Assembly: GCA_945870035.1 (NCBI GenBank) | Contig: CAMBQQ010000003.1 | Location: 1 to 64,000 of the forward strand | DNA: 64,000 nt | Direction: 5' to 3' | Source: Rhizobium sp. Q54 | GTDB lineage: Bacteria; Pseudomonadota; Alphaproteobacteria; Rhizobiales; Xanthobacteraceae | Shown: positions 5,118 through 54,552 of the stretch, piece by piece | Numbering within the stretch: position 1 is the first letter of the stretch | How the letters are laid out: each line of letters begins with the position of its first letter | Notes under the pieces: model-generated | The model's input: only the letters and a program-made list of their open reading frames with translations | Told to the model about the DNA's origin: nothing | Database searches by the model: none | Translations under genes and position numbers: made by a program

Positions 5118-6212
5118 ATGCAAGTCCTCGTTATCGGCGCCGGCGTCGTTGGCCTGGCGGCCGCCCGCGCCATCGCGCTGCGCGGCCATGACGTCATTGT
5201 CGCGGAGGCCGAGAACGCCATCGGCACCGGCATTTCCTCGCGCAACAGCGAAGTCATTCATGCCGGCATGTATTACCCGACCGGGTCGCTGCGCGCGCGG
5301 CACTGCGTCGCCGGGCGGCGTCTGCTTTATGCGTTCTGCGCCTCGCACGGCGTGCCGCACCGCAAATGCGGCAAGCTGATCGTCGCCACCGACGCGGTCG
5401 AGACCGAAAAGATCGAAAAGATCGCGGCGCAGGGCAAGATCAACGACGTCGAAGGCCTGGAATTGATGACGGCAGACGCGGCGCGCGCGCTCGAGCCGCA
5501 ATTGTTCTGCACCGCGGCGCTGAATTCAACGGAGACCGGCATCGTCGATGCGCATGCCTATATGCTGGCGTTGCGCGGCGATATCGAGGATGCCGGCGGC
5601 GTTGTCGCCTTCAACACGCCGATGCTCGGCGCCAAGCGCAAGGACGGGATGTGGGTGGTGACCTTCGGTGGCGCCGAGGGTGGCGCGTTCGAGTTCGACG
5701 CGGTCGTGAACTGCGCCGGCTTAAGCGCGCAACGCGTGGCGCGCACCATCGAAGACTATCCGCAGGACCGCGTGCCGAAGCAGGTGCTGGCCAAAGGCAA
5801 TTATTTCACCTTTACCGGCAGACCCGTTTTCTCACGGCTGATCTATCCGGCGCCGGTGCATGGCGGGCTTGGCGTGCATGTGACCCTCGATCTCGGCGGC
5901 CGCATGCGGTTCGGGCCGGACGTCGAATGGATCGACCGCGAATATTACCCGGTCGATCCGAAGCGCGCCGATGTGTTCTATGCCGCGATCCGCACTTATT
6001 TCCCGGCGCTGCCGGATGCATCTCTTGCGCCGGACTATTCCGGCATAAGGCCGAAAATCACCGGGCCGGGCGAGCCGGCGGCGGATTTCCTCATCGATGC
6101 GCCGGCGCAGCACGGCGTGCCGGGTTTGGTGCAGATGTTCGGGATTGAATCGCCGGGCCTGACCAGTTCGCTGTCGCTGGGCGAGGAAGTGGCTGCGGCG
6201 ATTTCGGCTTAA
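5118..6212 (+). CDS. NAD(P)/FAD-dependent oxidoreductase, L-2-hydroxyglutarate oxidase-like (DAO family)
   Basis: The 364-residue protein opens with a dinucleotide-binding motif VIGAGVVGLAAARAIA, followed by SSRNSEVIHAGMYYP, which is characteristic of L-2-hydroxyglutarate oxidase/dehydrogenase (LhgO-like) proteins of the D-amino-acid-oxidase fold. The C-terminal GIESPGLTSSLSLGEEV is the usual FAD-domain closure. The ATG at 5118 puts the FAD motif at the extreme N-terminus, as the family expects; an upstream in-frame TTG at 5085 has no support. The likely reaction is oxidation of a 2-hydroxy acid to a 2-oxo acid with FAD, but the substrate is inferred from family resemblance. Its stop codon abuts that of the convergent gene. 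Confidence 0.85.
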   Translation: MQVLVIGAGVVGLAAARAIALRGHDVIVAEAENAIGTGISSRNSEVIHAGMYYPTGSLRARHCVAGRRLLYAFCASHGVPHRKCGKLIVATDAVETEKIEKIAAQGKINDVEGLELMTADAARALEPQLFCTAALNSTETGIVDAHAYMLALRGDIEDAGGVVAFNTPMLGAKRKDGMWVVTFGGAEGGAFEFDAVVNCAGLSAQRVARTIEDYPQDRVPKQVLAKGNYFTFTGRPVFSRLIYPAPVHGGLGVHVTLDLGGRMRFGPDVEWIDREYYPVDPKRADVFYAAIRTYFPALPDASLAPDYSGIRPKITGPGEPAADFLIDAPAQHGVPGLVQMFGIESPGLTSSLSLGEEVAAAISA

Positions 6213-50292: not shown

Positions 50293-50859
50293 ATGCTTGA
50301 AACAATCCAGATGTCGACTGCGCAGGTTCGGCGAAGGTTGCTGCGATCACGGTTGCTCCGCCGCTTCGTGCGGCATGAGGATGGCAGCTCCGCGGTCGAG
50401 TTTTCGCTGATCGCCGCGCCGTTTCTGGCGCTCTTGTTCGCCATCATCGAAACCGCGCTGGTGTTTTTCGCCGGCCAGACTTTGGAAGCGGCCGCCGCCG
50501 ACTCGGCGCGCCTGATCATGACCGGCGAGGCGCAATCGAAAGGCTTCAGCCAGTCCGATTTCAAGACCCAGGTGTGCAACCGCATCTTCGGATTGTTCGA
50601 TTGCGCCGGCGGTCTTTATGTCGACGTCAAGAGCTATTCGAGCTTCACCTCGATCTCGACGGCGTCGCCGGTCGTCAACGGGACTTTCAACACGTCGATG
50701 AGCTACAGCCCCGGTACCGTCGGCGATATCGTCGTCGTCTCGCTGTACTATCAGTGGCCGGTTATCGTTCCGAATCTTGGCAATGACCTGAGCAATCTCA
50801 GCGGCAACAAGCGCCTGCTGGCGGCGACGTCGGTGTTCCGCGTCGAGCCCTACAAGTGA
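50293..50859 (+). CDS. TadE-like pseudopilin
   Basis: A 188-residue minor pilin candidate. A basic cytoplasmic N-terminus is followed by DGSSAVEFSLIAAPFLALLFAIIETALVFF, the TadE motif with the conserved glutamate five residues into the processed form, then a periplasmic domain with a cysteine pair (VCNRIFGLFDC). CpaA should cleave it just before the hydrophobic stretch. It overlaps or abuts the next TadE-like gene. Confidence 0.9.
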   Translation: MLETIQMSTAQVRRRLLRSRLLRRFVRHEDGSSAVEFSLIAAPFLALLFAIIETALVFFAGQTLEAAAADSARLIMTGEAQSKGFSQSDFKTQVCNRIFGLFDCAGGLYVDVKSYSSFTSISTASPVVNGTFNTSMSYSPGTVGDIVVVSLYYQWPVIVPNLGNDLSNLSGNKRLLAATSVFRVEPYK

Positions 50860-51422
50860 GCGATCAGGCCATGACCCGAACGGTTTGCACATCCGGTTTT
50901 CTGCGCCGTTTCGCGCGCGACAGGCGCGGCGTCTCCGCTGTCGAATTCGCGCTGGTCGCGCCGGTGATGATCGGGCTTTATTTCGGCGTCGTCGAAGTGT
51001 CGGACGGCGTCAGCGCCGGCCGCAAGCTCAGCCTGACGACGGCGACTTTGGCGAACCTGTCGTCGCAAGTGGCGACCATTTCCAGTTCCGACATGACCAA
51101 CATTCTCGATGCGTCGAGCGCGGTTATTGCGCCTTATGACAAGAGCAAGCTGAAGGTCACCATCTCCTGCATCAGCATCAACGCCAGCAAGGTGGCGACG
51201 GTGAAGTGGAGCGTTACCCGCAACGGCGCTGCCAAATCCGGCACCGTGACGCTGCCGGCGGCGCTGGCTGTGGCCTCAACGCAGATCATTCTGGCTGAGG
51301 CTTCGTACAGCTACACGCCGATCGTCGGCCACAACATCACCGGCACGATCAACCTGTCCGATCAGATGTACATGAGCCCGCGCGTCACCGCGCCGACTTA
51401 CGACACGACGACCTGCACTTAA
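50856..51422 (+). CDS. TadE-like pseudopilin, second
   Basis: A 188-residue relative of the preceding protein. RRGVSAVEFALVAPVMIGLYFGVVEVSDG is the processed pilin-like helix, and the rest is Ser/Thr-rich and extracytoplasmic, with a distal cysteine pair. The GTG at 50856 overlaps the previous stop (GTGA), favouring coupled translation; the ATG at 50871 is a possible alternative. It ends 2 bp from the convergent regulator gene. Confidence 0.87.
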   Translation: MSDQAMTRTVCTSGFLRRFARDRRGVSAVEFALVAPVMIGLYFGVVEVSDGVSAGRKLSLTTATLANLSSQVATISSSDMTNILDASSAVIAPYDKSKLKVTISCISINASKVATVKWSVTRNGAAKSGTVTLPAALAVASTQIILAEASYSYTPIVGHNITGTINLSDQMYMSPRVTAPTYDTTTCT

Positions 51423-51424
51423 GG

Positions 51425-51886
51425 CTACCGTGCGTCCGAAATCGGCAGCGCCGTGGTCGACTTGATCCGCTCCATGGCGAAGCGCGACGTCACGTTTTTC
51501 AGCGGCACGGTGGCGATCAGCTTCTTGTAGAACGTGTCGTAGCTTTGCATGTCGTGCACGACGACGCGCAGCACGTAATCGACATCGCCCGCCATGCGGT
51601 AGAATTCCATCACCTCCGGCATGGCGTTGACGACCTCGGCAAATTTCGACAGCCATTCCTGCGAATGATCGCCGGTCTCGACCGAGACGAATACGGTGAT
51701 GCCGAGCCCGACCTTTTCCGGATCGATCAGCGCGACGCGGCGGGTGATGACGCCGTCGGCTTCCAGCCGCTGCAAGCGCTTCCAGCACGGCGTCGAGGAC
51801 AGGCCGACGCGGTTGCCGATTTCGGCGACCGAGAGCGAGGCGTCCTGCTGCACCACGGCCAGGATCTTGCGGTCGATGGCGTCCAT
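51425..51886 (-). CDS. Lrp/AsnC family transcriptional regulator
   Basis: A 153-residue regulator. The helix-turn-helix is at the N-terminus (DRKILAVVQQDASLSVAEIG, then STPCWKRLQRLEADGVI), followed by the RAM ligand domain (GLGITVFVSVETGDHSQEWL, MAGDVDYVLRVVVHD). The ATG at 51886 has GGATTGGAGA upstream; the frame extends to 51967 across the AT-rich regulatory region and was rejected. It diverges from the rhodanese gene, and two AGAA-like palindromes lie between them. Lrp proteins of this length often respond to one amino acid; cysteine is an attractive guess given the neighbours. Confidence 0.92.
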   Translation of the reverse strand: MDAIDRKILAVVQQDASLSVAEIGNRVGLSSTPCWKRLQRLEADGVITRRVALIDPEKVGLGITVFVSVETGDHSQEWLSKFAEVVNAMPEVMEFYRMAGDVDYVLRVVVHDMQSYDTFYKKLIATVPLKNVTSRFAMERIKSTTALPISDAR

Positions 51887-51938
51887 TCTCCAATCCTCTT
51901 CAGATTTAGGACCGCTATCTACGGCGGCCTTGGTATTT

Positions 51939-51992
51939 AGAATAAAATTCTTATTTCTCGCTGCCATCTGTCTTTATAGAGAAAAATATTCT
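51939..51992. promoter_or_regulatory. Paired candidate AsnC/Lrp operators
   Basis: The perfect palindrome AGAATAAAATTCT (51939-51951) and the near copy AGAAAAATATTCT (51980-51992) have centres 41 bp apart, close to four helical turns, in an AT-rich island between the divergent regulator and rhodanese starts. The second is also inside TAGA-N9-TCTA. Lrp-family octamers bind such repeated sites on one DNA face. Confidence 0.6.
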
Positions 51993-52048
51993 ATTTCAAG
52001 AGCAATCTGACGCGCCCTAGGGCGCTTTGTGCCAACCGGATCCGTGCC

Positions 52049-53041
52049 ATGAGAATTTTCGCCTCCTTGTTCGCCCGCCGCACCCGAGCCGCTGCCCTGG
52101 CGGCGATGATGACGCTTGGCGCGACCTTCACCGCCTCCGCCGCTCCTGCCGCCGATGTGACGCCTTTGGTCAGTGTCGAATGGCTCAAGAGCAAACTGAA
52201 CGACAAGGATGTCGTCGTGCTCGACATTCGCTCCGCCATCGATGGCGGCGGCGCCAAAGCCTTCACCGAAGCCCACATCCCCGGCAGTGTGCATTCGGAC
52301 TACGACAAGGCCGGCTGGCGCGTGACGCGCAACAACGTGCCGTTCATGCTGCCGACGCCTGCCGAACTGGAAAAGCTGATCGGCGATCTTGGCATCGACG
52401 AAGAAAAGCATGTCGTCGTCGTTCCGGCTGGCGTCAACTTCACCGATTTCGGCTCTGCGGCGCGTACCTATTGGACGCTCAAGGTCGTCGGCCTGAAGAA
52501 CGTGTCGATCCTCGATGGCGGCGTCGCCGCCTGGCGCGCGGCCGGCCTGCCGGTCGAGAGCGGCGAGAACAAGCCGTCGGCGACGATCTTCACCGCCGAC
52601 ATCAACAAGAACCTGATCGCGCTGGGCGCCGACGTCGAGGCGCTTGAAGCGAAGGGTGGCGCCACTTTGATCGACGCGCGCCCGGCCTCGTTCTTCCTCG
52701 GCAAGGAGAAGGCGCCGAACGCCGCCGCCTATGGCCATATTCCCGGCTCGGTCAATGTCGACAGCGCGGGTTACTACGACGCCAAGACCAACAAATTGAA
52801 GCCGAAGGCCGAACTGGCGGCGTTGTCGGCGCATGTGCCGGCCGGTCCTGCGGTGAGCTACTGCAACACCGGTCACTGGGCCGCCACCGATTGGTTCGTG
52901 CTGCACGAACTGCTCGGCCGCGAGGACGTGCGTCTCTATGACGGCTCGATGGCCGAATGGACCGCCAATGCCAATCGTCCGGTTGAATCGACGCGCACGA
53001 AGTGGGATGACTTGAAAAAGGCGCTCGGTCTGGGGTCTTGA
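52049..53041 (+). CDS. Exported sulfurtransferase with two rhodanese domains
   Basis: A 330-residue protein with a signal peptide (cleavage near SAAPA, about residue 33). The first rhodanese domain (about 40-185) lacks a catalytic cysteine. The second carries CNTGHWA in the active loop (Cys at about 272). This layout is that of thiosulfate:cyanide sulfurtransferases such as SseA, but the export signal places it in the periplasm. It moves a sulfane sulfur from thiosulfate or a persulfide to an acceptor. It is divergent from the regulator and followed by the YeeE/YedE transporter. Confidence 0.91.
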   Translation: MRIFASLFARRTRAAALAAMMTLGATFTASAAPAADVTPLVSVEWLKSKLNDKDVVVLDIRSAIDGGGAKAFTEAHIPGSVHSDYDKAGWRVTRNNVPFMLPTPAELEKLIGDLGIDEEKHVVVVPAGVNFTDFGSAARTYWTLKVVGLKNVSILDGGVAAWRAAGLPVESGENKPSATIFTADINKNLIALGADVEALEAKGGATLIDARPASFFLGKEKAPNAAAYGHIPGSVNVDSAGYYDAKTNKLKPKAELAALSAHVPAGPAVSYCNTGHWAATDWFVLHELLGREDVRLYDGSMAEWTANANRPVESTRTKWDDLKKALGLGS

Positions 53042-53051
53042 TCGAGTTTCT

Positions 53052-53234
53052 CCGTCACCCTGAGGTGCTCGGCCGCAAGGCCGAGCCATCGCAAGTCGGC
53101 TGTAGCCGACTTGCGCAATTTTAAGTCGGATGTCAGGTAGACCTGACATCCGGGGGCGACGGCCCAAGCGCTGCCATGTACGGGCCGTTCATCCTTCGAG
53201 GCTCGCGCTTTGCGCTCGCACCTCAGGATGACGG
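53052..53234. repeat. Nested composite REP element between sulfurtransferase and transporter genes
   Basis: Outer arms of 17 bp (53052-53068 and 53218-53234, 16 of 17 complementary) enclose three perfect hairpins: GCTCGGCC (53067-53074, partner 53079-53086), GCAAGTCGGCT (53091-53101, partner 53104-53114) and CGGATGTCAGGT (53127-53138, partner 53141-53152). It fills nearly the entire gap of about 209 bp. Confidence 0.88.
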
Positions 53235-53250
53235 TGATAGAAGGTCATCT

Positions 53251-54396
53251 ATGTCCACAACGACAGTTTCTGCTTCGGTCTCGACATCTCCCCGCATCGA
53301 CACCCTGTTCCTCGGTGCGGCGGTGCTCGCGACGGCCATCCTGGTCGCGCTGGTCCTGCTCGACGGCCAGACCGCCTCGGCGGCGCTGGTCCTCGGCGGC
53401 TTTGCGCTGGGCATCGCCTTTCTCAAGGCCGAATTCAGCTACACCGCGTCGTGGCGCCGCTTCCTCAATCGCGGCGAAGCCGGCGGGCTGATCGGCGGCC
53501 TCATCGTCATCGCCATTTGCGCGCTCGCCGTTGTGCCGGTCGCGGCGCTATGGCCCGGCTTCGGCGGCGCCATCGCGCCGCTCGGACCGTCGCTGCTCAT
53601 CGGCGCCTTCGTTTTCGGCATCGGCATGCAACTCGCCAATGGCTGCGGTTCCGGCACGCTGTACACCGTCGGCGGCGGTTCCGGCCGCATGCTGGTGACG
53701 CTCGCGTTCTTCATCATCGGCAGCGTGCTCGGCTCGCTGTCGCTGCCGTCCTTCCTCGCGCTCGGCGGCATCAATCCGGTGCTGGCGTCGGACTATCTCG
53801 GCCCCTGGGGCGGCCTCGTGGCGACGCTCGCCAGCATCGCGCTCGCCGCCGTCATCATGGCGGCGGTGGCGAAAAAGCGCGGCGCCAATTTCATGCCGTC
53901 GCGCACCTACATCATCGGCGGCATTGTCATCGGCGTGCTGTGCATCGCGGTGTTTTTTGCTGGCGGTCATCCGTGGAGCGTGACCTTCGGCTACACCGTG
54001 TGGGGCGGCAAAATCTTTGCCGCGCTCGGCTTCGATTTCTCGCAGGCTGAGTTCTGGCAATGGCCGGGCCCGAAGCGCGCGCTCACCGGCTCGGTCTTGA
54101 GCGATACGTCGAGCCTCACGGACTTCGGCATGATCTTCGGCGCCATGGCGGCGGCCGCCGCCACTAAGCGTTACGCCGCGACCGCCTGGCCGCCGCTCGG
54201 GTCATTGCTCGCCGCCGCGATCGGCGGGCTACTGTGCGGCTGGGGCGCGCGCATCGGCTTCGGCTGCAACATCGGCGCGTTTATCGGCGGCGTCGCTTCA
54301 GGCTCGCTGCACGGCTGGATCTGGTTTCTCGCGGCGCTGCCGGGCTGCATGATCGGCATCAGGCTGCGGCCGTTGTTCGGCATGTCGAGGGATTAG
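53251..54396 (+). CDS. YeeE/YedE family sulfur-compound transporter
   Basis: A 381-residue membrane protein with about ten hydrophobic segments. Conserved cysteines lie in LANGCGSGTLYTVGGG, RIGFGCNIGAFIGG and LPGCMIG, the sites that pass thiosulfate through YeeE/YedE (TsuA-like) channels. A nearby exported rhodanese supports a sulfur role, although relatives with selenium or unknown roles exist. The ATG at 53251 has AAGG upstream. It ends 3 bp before a tiny cysteine-rich gene. Confidence 0.88.
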   Translation: MSTTTVSASVSTSPRIDTLFLGAAVLATAILVALVLLDGQTASAALVLGGFALGIAFLKAEFSYTASWRRFLNRGEAGGLIGGLIVIAICALAVVPVAALWPGFGGAIAPLGPSLLIGAFVFGIGMQLANGCGSGTLYTVGGGSGRMLVTLAFFIIGSVLGSLSLPSFLALGGINPVLASDYLGPWGGLVATLASIALAAVIMAAVAKKRGANFMPSRTYIIGGIVIGVLCIAVFFAGGHPWSVTFGYTVWGGKIFAALGFDFSQAEFWQWPGPKRALTGSVLSDTSSLTDFGMIFGAMAAAAATKRYAATAWPPLGSLLAAAIGGLLCGWGARIGFGCNIGAFIGGVASGSLHGWIWFLAALPGCMIGIRLRPLFGMSRD

Positions 54397-54399
54397 CGC

Positions 54400-54552
54400 A
54401 TGCGGAAAACATACATCGCGGTTGTCTTGCTGGCGGTTATTGCCATTGTCGGCGATCATCTCACCAGCCCGTCGAGTGGGCGGGCCGTGTCGCCGGAGGA
54501 TTTCGCCGGCGCCTGTGCGCCGTGCGGCGCGCCGTGCCCGGTGAAGAAGTAG
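54400..54552 (+). CDS. 50-residue membrane-anchored cysteine-rich peptide
   Basis: This small gene begins 3 bp after the transporter stop, with GAGGGA seven bases before its ATG, a convincing ribosome-binding site. The product has one hydrophobic segment (about residues 5-18), a short Ser/Pro spacer, and a C-terminal cluster with Cys39, Cys42 and Cys46 in CAPCGAPC, ending in two lysines. I do not recognise a family. The placement suggests a partner of the sulfur transporter, perhaps accepting sulfane sulfur, which is inference. It could instead be a chance frame, but the spacing and signal argue against that. Confidence 0.66.
   Translation: MRKTYIAVVLLAVIAIVGDHLTSPSSGRAVSPEDFAGACAPCGAPCPVKK

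Follow-up and report, generated by a model that had tools for sequence, protein, structure and literature searches.

A 50-codon gene for a cysteine-rich peptide begins 3 bp past the stop codon of a YeeE/YedE transporter gene in Rhizobium sp. Q54, a position that raises the question of whether so small a product belongs with the sulfur-handling proteins encoded beside it and, if so, what it might do there. The gene lies in a 64,000-nucleotide stretch of DNA (assembly GCA_945870035.1, contig CAMBQQ010000003.1, positions 1 to 64,000 of the forward strand), called here the window, and it is the last of four open reading frames (ORFs), all present between positions 51425 and 54552: a divergent gene for an Lrp/AsnC regulator, then the genes of an exported double rhodanese, of a YeeE/YedE transporter and of the microprotein. 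The initial annotation had described this order, the exported double rhodanese, the 3-bp spacing and a 50-residue peptide with three clustered cysteines, all of which were borne out by the ORF calls and Pfam searches. We concluded that the rhodanese, YeeE and microprotein genes form a conserved unit, a linkage that is well supported. We propose, with a probability of roughly 0.5, that this unit is a three-gene sulfur-import module in which sulfur would pass from the rhodanese to a tethered tail and then to YeeE. The rhodanese and the transporter are of known kinds; the helper belongs to an uncharacterised family found in two proteobacterial classes.

The microprotein and its two partners

The microprotein gene (54400 to 54552, plus strand) encodes 50 residues with cysteines at positions 39, 42 and 46. 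Comparison with homologues and an AlphaFold2 model delineated a helix at residues 2 to 22, which was predicted with confidence, a DHLxSP motif, and a low-confidence tail containing CAPCGAPC (codons 54514 to 54537). A chance ORF was ruled out by the homologues within the genus, where 31 of 35 relatives had a match within E ≤ 0.1 and none of these matches was weaker than 4.6e-20; by the rarity of the CAPCGAPC DNA pattern, which occurred once in the window and in none of 100 shuffles; and by the ratio of nonsynonymous to synonymous polymorphism (pN/pS), which was 0.24 over the whole protein, with 0.42 for the helix and 0.13 for the tail. The ratio was computed on the 15 sequences of equal length among the 26 (of 30 in the genus) that the script's pattern recognised. 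Purifying selection acts on the tail within the genus. A streamlined genome of 1.4 Mb from another family also has the microprotein next to YeeE.

The difference between N-terminal and C-terminal charge was positive in 56/56 tail proteins, the pattern of an N-in/C-out protein, and the tail is therefore predicted to be periplasmic; the N-terminal helix presumably stays as a membrane anchor instead of being cleaved as a signal peptide. The window microprotein matched no entry in Pfam, the SoxY domain (PF13501) included, in NCBIfam or in the PDB, and 14 members representing all tail types gave only weak, single-member database matches, the best being to NF033936 (E 6.9e-4). Across 14 representatives covering all tail types, D19 and one cysteine were invariant. 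Members of the family thus share a membrane helix, the D-H/L motif and a tail with cysteine that is predicted to lie outside, and Pfam has no model for them; the window peptide has the helix, the motif and the tail, and its gene directly follows a rhodanese-linked YeeE. No name for the family appeared in the databases or in the open PMC literature searched by titles and the beginnings of abstracts. Searching a plasmid collection with the window peptide gave no match, although plasmids of Sinorhizobium meliloti carry a divergent tail of the type called B below.

The transporter gene (53251 to 54396, plus strand) matched PF04143 at 150.7 bits (cut-off 27), and its start is likely the ATG at 53251, not 53176. 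Its AlphaFold2 model (predicted local distance difference test, pLDDT, 92.4) has the TsuA fold (Foldseek against 6leo, E 2e-9, TMt 0.77). The conserved Cys132 (53644 to 53646) and Cys339 (54265 to 54267) correspond to TsuA C91 and C293; the position of C22 is occupied by Ser in the window and by Gly in the profile consensus. The initial claim of conserved transport cysteines therefore stands for two of TsuA's and fails for the third. In TsuA, the cysteines matching the two retained here come first and second on the transport route, and C22 contacts YeeD, the cytoplasmic partner (PMC11073785). The NCBIfam TsuA model NF052577, whose cut-off is 400 bits, scored the window YeeE at 34.1. At locus L239, YeeE has a cysteine one position off the site of the third. 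Elsewhere in the genome of the window, another YeeE-type match is split into two halves (G000:C44, L002 and L003), a layout like that of PmpAB.

The rhodanese gene (52049 to 53041, plus strand) matched PF00581 in two stretches, giving two domains, of which the second carries the catalytic Cys272 (codon 52862 to 52864) in the loop CNTGHWA. Its signal peptide was recognised by eye; among 56 module rhodaneses a hydrophobic N-terminus was present in 51 and was followed by AxA in 26. The catalytic cysteine column was invariant in 56/56, within the loop CN[TS]GH[WL]A, and one other column held cysteine, in 5/56. Its PRK11493 score, 151.7 bits where the cut-off is 250, falls short of that for a 3-mercaptopyruvate sulfurtransferase, and CNTGHWA differs from the CGSGVTA loop of 1urh.

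Joint occurrence of rhodanese, YeeE and tail

In a survey of the order, YeeE was detected at E ≤ 1e-30 in 109/397 genomes, and all 112 loci, the window included, were read. YeeE was linked to a rhodanese at 57 of them, and at 56 of these 57 a cysteine-tail ORF followed directly downstream; 55 tails were called by script (start between -8 and +30 nt from the YeeE stop) and one, L279, which failed the pattern, by eye. L199, whose tail ends after CAPC close to the contig end, was counted as having a tail. The sole rhodanese-linked locus without a tail, L248, had a rhodanese match of only 120 bits. No cysteine-tail gene was found at any of the 55 YeeE loci without a linked rhodanese. Set aside in this two-by-two count were cytochrome c ORFs (CxxCH) after four rhodanese-free YeeE genes (L263, L282, L289 and L299) and two script-called ORFs with a transmembrane segment and cysteine that appear spurious (L296 and L297).

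The tails of the order survey fell into four types: A, with CAPCGAPC (21); B, with PCAAGAP repeats (17); C, with PCGLG repeats (3); and D (15), with a single cysteine in FCALVP or FCGALP. An additional PCGLGG form with one cysteine after the helix occurred in a 1.2-Mb genome. Counted over the whole ORF in 55 tails, cysteines ranged from 1 to 14, and the type C tail of L239 has 14, in PCGLG-type repeats.

Three close YeeE proteins of one family, f7 (L206, L212 and L220), and that of L295 had neither rhodanese nor tail, and in every f7 genome the highest-scoring rhodanese (in G057, the better of two) carried a CGSGVTA loop. As for what stands downstream of rhodanese-free YeeE genes, the four cytochrome c loci named above have a short ORF for an exported cytochrome c-like protein (CAGCHG). 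A conserved exported protein of about 160 residues often followed elsewhere (L236, L242 to L247, L250, L251, L253, L255, L258 to L260, L262, L266, L268 and L270); we take it to resemble DUF302.

In the phylum, YeeE matched at 1e-50 in 42/398 genomes; among the 30 loci read, 7 of which were shared with the order survey, 9 were rhodanese-linked and all 9 had a tail, and no tail was seen by eye within 260 nt after the other 21 YeeE genes. Matches in the class to a profile of the CAPCGAPC form, other than that of the window's own genome, comprised three that stand with YeeE and rhodanese, and L073. The latter was considered as a natural fusion and rejected as a chance match, the ORF being one that we take to be YidC-like. 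Four of the 35 genus relatives carry no peptide, and these also have no close YeeE (three had none and one had a YeeE of 31% identity, beside a CRIGERSS-type rhodanese); two of the four genomes were only 80 and 83% complete, and the positive control, G409, was found. The rhodaneses read from these four relatives had no CNTGHW, and the best of each had a CGSGVSA loop. Within the genus, then, where the module is missing, it is missing as a unit.

A scan of named genomes for the CAPCGAPC pattern, not exhaustive, gave at least 117 stretches. Among the matches listed, 60/117 passed the peptide test and 58 of these 60 had YeeE upstream, which confirmed in named genomes the link between peptide and YeeE drawn from the window; a rhodanese was visible at 50 of the 58, and of the remaining 8, YeeE lay at the stretch edge in 7 and L113 had fragments of both genes. 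The peptide of L074, also among the matches listed, was truncated by the stretch edge. The other 57 of the 117 matches listed were rejected as peptides, and 0/57 had YeeE upstream; two of them (L095 and L127) are real peptides truncated by the stretch edge. Carriers of CAPCGAPC, among the matches listed, include Marinobacteraceae, Halomonadaceae, Ectothiorhodospiraceae, SAR116, Xanthobacteraceae and Rhodobiaceae; the tail form of the window is also that of Marinobacter, Halomonas and SAR116 members. A viral scan returned 6 stretches, none with a YeeE match. Because some named contigs come from the same genomes as the other surveys, the counts are not independent of one another.

Regulator, spacer and neighbouring genes

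The divergent Lrp/AsnC-family gene (51425 to 51886, minus strand) encodes 153 residues from the ATG at 51886, the likely start in preference to 51967, judging from an alignment to the solved structure 3i4p that begins at residue 1. Both the AsnC helix-turn-helix domain (PF13404) and the ligand-binding domain (PF01037) scored above their Pfam cut-offs, in agreement with the Lrp-type identity first assigned to it. The regulator stood beside the module at 29/29 of the genus loci examined, out of the 31 that have the peptide, at 4/57 rhodanese-linked loci of the order, the window included, and, among the matches listed, at 19/58 named loci, some of them partial. It is a lineage-specific addition and no core member of the module. 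The block of four co-conserved genes that the initial annotation had suggested is accordingly reduced to three, the regulator being retained within the lineage and not outside it.

Two operator-like palindromes lie between the regulator and rhodanese genes. Palindrome 2, GAGAAAAATATTCTA (51979 to 51993), is followed by a conserved TTTCAAG and was scored against an Lrp consensus. At its offset, 26/30 genus sequences (window included) matched at least 13 of 15 consensus positions, 3 matched 12/15 and 1 matched 11/15; in shuffled copies the best site anywhere averaged about 11, and for the window 3/200 shuffles reached 13. Palindrome 1, TAGAATAAAATTCTT (51938 to 51952), whose centre is 41 bp from that of palindrome 2, is weaker and more variable. 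We infer that the regulator is likely to control both its own gene and the module.

The 209 bp separating the rhodanese from YeeE (53042 to 53250) are a dispersed palindromic repeat with 52 matches in its own genome, the query included, and probably stand outside the function of the module; in some relatives (L304, L305 and L310) the spacer is about 35 bp. On the far side of the regulator, two small pilus-assembly-like ORFs (50293 to 51422), the second of which matches TadE (PF07811), are apparently unrelated to the module.

A check of 20 neighbouring proteins revealed no general further partner. In a streamlined Hyphomicrobiales family with genomes of about 0.9 to 1.6 Mb, a DsbA-like gene followed the tail in 10/11 loci, and the eleventh ends at the contig end; the call rests on Pfam and a CGYC motif at one locus, L203, and the arrangement was seen in this family only. 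DsbA-like and Sel1-repeat genes stand there after the tail on the same strand (L195 to L198, L201 to L203, L209, L210 and L213). At 20/20 type B and C loci (L237, L211, L214 to L219, L221 to L230, L239 and L240) the tail adjoins a match to a DUF6969 protein, in four cases in an over-long frame; Pfam named the domain only for L237 (6430 to 7071 of that locus), and the others are matches to the L237 protein. Such a match also stands beside the tail in S. meliloti (L361, near 5753 to 6130).

The NIR_SIR domain was detected in 0/11 streamlined module genomes tested and TusA in 9/11, for which reason a supply of reduced sulfur makes sense for the streamlined carriers. The window genome has NIR_SIR, SoxY and TusA; of its genus relatives, G407 has NIR_SIR and TusA, and G414 has SoxY and TusA with no NIR_SIR detected.

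Plasmid pSymB of S. meliloti 1021 carries a type B unit with a tail of 124 residues and four cysteines. For S. meliloti ml28, the rhodanese and YeeE appear in a gene table that is incomplete by design, and the tail gene does not. Because the strain 1021 pSymB contains only one match to the module rhodanese, this rhodanese is probably thtR (SMb21549).

A proposed sulfur relay and its alternatives

We propose that the exported rhodanese would take periplasmic sulfane sulfur, whether from thiosulfate, polysulfide or persulfide, onto its catalytic cysteine and transfer it to the thiol or thiols of the microprotein, which would be held by its N-terminal helix in the inner membrane with its flexible cysteine tail outside. 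The tail would then pass the sulfur to the outer of the two remaining channel cysteines of YeeE, and YeeE would carry it inward, where TusA-type proteins could accept it; in the lineage of the window, the divergent Lrp-type regulator would control the unit. The role of sulfur carrier that had initially been suggested for the small peptide is the one that fits the evidence best. At somewhat less than even odds, we further propose that the tails make up a family of thiol arms not described before, tethered in the periplasm, whose 1 to 14 cysteines on a flexible and often Pro/Ala/Gly-rich stretch would, as a relay or antenna, gather sulfane sulfur from an exported CNTGHW rhodanese and pass it step by step into the YeeE channel.

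Several observations weigh against such a relay or weaken the case for it. The co-occurrence of rhodanese and tail in the order survey gave a Fisher p of 1e-26; on a YeeE tree of 123 rows, however, there are only 3 changes in linkage to a rhodanese and only 5 in tail type, all types taken together, so that this value overstates the co-occurrence and mainly mirrors long joint retention. An independent-pair test had 3 pairs (sign test p 0.25 to 0.5), which puts significance out of reach, and the rhodanese profile was derived from the very loci on which it was used. The CAPCGAPC form is rare in the class, its profile having matched only 5/385 genomes, the window's own included, and is therefore patchy there. 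The Halomonas peptide L168, on a contig of Halomonas jincaotanensis, has no YeeE in the 6 kb upstream and is a true exception. The third TsuA cysteine is also missing from 5/5 rhodanese-free YeeE proteins in the alignment, and its absence was for that reason discarded as a mark of the module. Finally, a need for sulfur cannot explain all carriers, because the window genome and G407 have NIR_SIR.

The microprotein might instead serve YeeE as a small subunit for structure or gating; its cysteines would then form disulfides or respond to redox state without carrying sulfur. Its size, single helix, conserved motif at the membrane edge and start overlapping or near the YeeE stop are common among small subunits of transporters; against this, selection in the genus is stronger on the tail than on the helix, the spread in cysteine number is incompatible with a fixed disulfide, and in the order survey the microprotein accompanied only rhodanese-linked YeeE. 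We consider this alternative unlikely. Less probable again is that the module protects against periplasmic persulfide, cyanide or oxidative stress and has no nutritional role. The probable thtR of S. meliloti was 29.3-fold up in a tolC mutant, which was read as part of an oxidative-stress response, but sulfate-transport and assimilation genes were up as well, which fits a demand for sulfur (PMC2912261); moreover, streamlined carriers without detected NIR_SIR retain the module. That the tail binds a soft metal (Cu or Zn), protecting or loading the transporter, is the least probable: CxxCxxxC and PC-repeat tails do look metal-binding, and the weak NF033936 match of 1/14 tails, to a Cu/Zn efflux transporter model, counts against a sulfur relay, but that match is probably due to a low-complexity repeat, the partner enzyme is a sulfurtransferase, and the 15 type D tails with a single cysteine disfavour a metal site as the shared function.

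The proposed sulfur relay has parallels in known systems. It shares with TsuA-TsuB (YeeE-YeeD) thiosulfate uptake the YeeE fold, the first two of three channel cysteines and a small cysteine protein as partner; it differs in that its small partner is predicted to be membrane-tethered and outside, whereas YeeD is cytoplasmic, in that its YeeE is without the third cysteine, and in the addition of an exported rhodanese. SoxYZ, with the SoxT importers of Hyphomicrobium, likewise combines a cysteine on a swinging arm with a YeeE-type importer (PMC11582611, PMC5336275); the microprotein, unlike SoxYZ, has no Pfam match, is predicted to be membrane-anchored and is encoded beside a rhodanese, and the likeness is one of proposed function only. 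YedE1E2 (PmpAB), an importer of zero-valent sulfur, is also a case of sulfane sulfur import by the YeeE family (PMC10812762), but consists of split, half-size proteins. The YTD cluster, known from sulfur disproportionators and from cable bacteria, differs in having TusA- and DsrE-like genes, and no rhodanese is named among its genes. S. meliloti thtR is very likely the rhodanese of the type B module, and the available text of PMC2912261 discusses neither YeeE nor a tail gene.

If the tails are indeed thiol arms, the module would extend the cysteine ladder of the transporter outward, whereas TsuA extends it inward to YeeD. The entry of sulfur into the cytoplasm of such bacteria has been described as poorly understood (PMC11582611). 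A dedicated carrier peptide, tiny and without a family model, is easily overlooked, and it would offer a testable answer to how sulfur enters, one that would span two proteobacterial classes and include the legume symbiont S. meliloti as well as streamlined bacteria in which no NIR_SIR was found.

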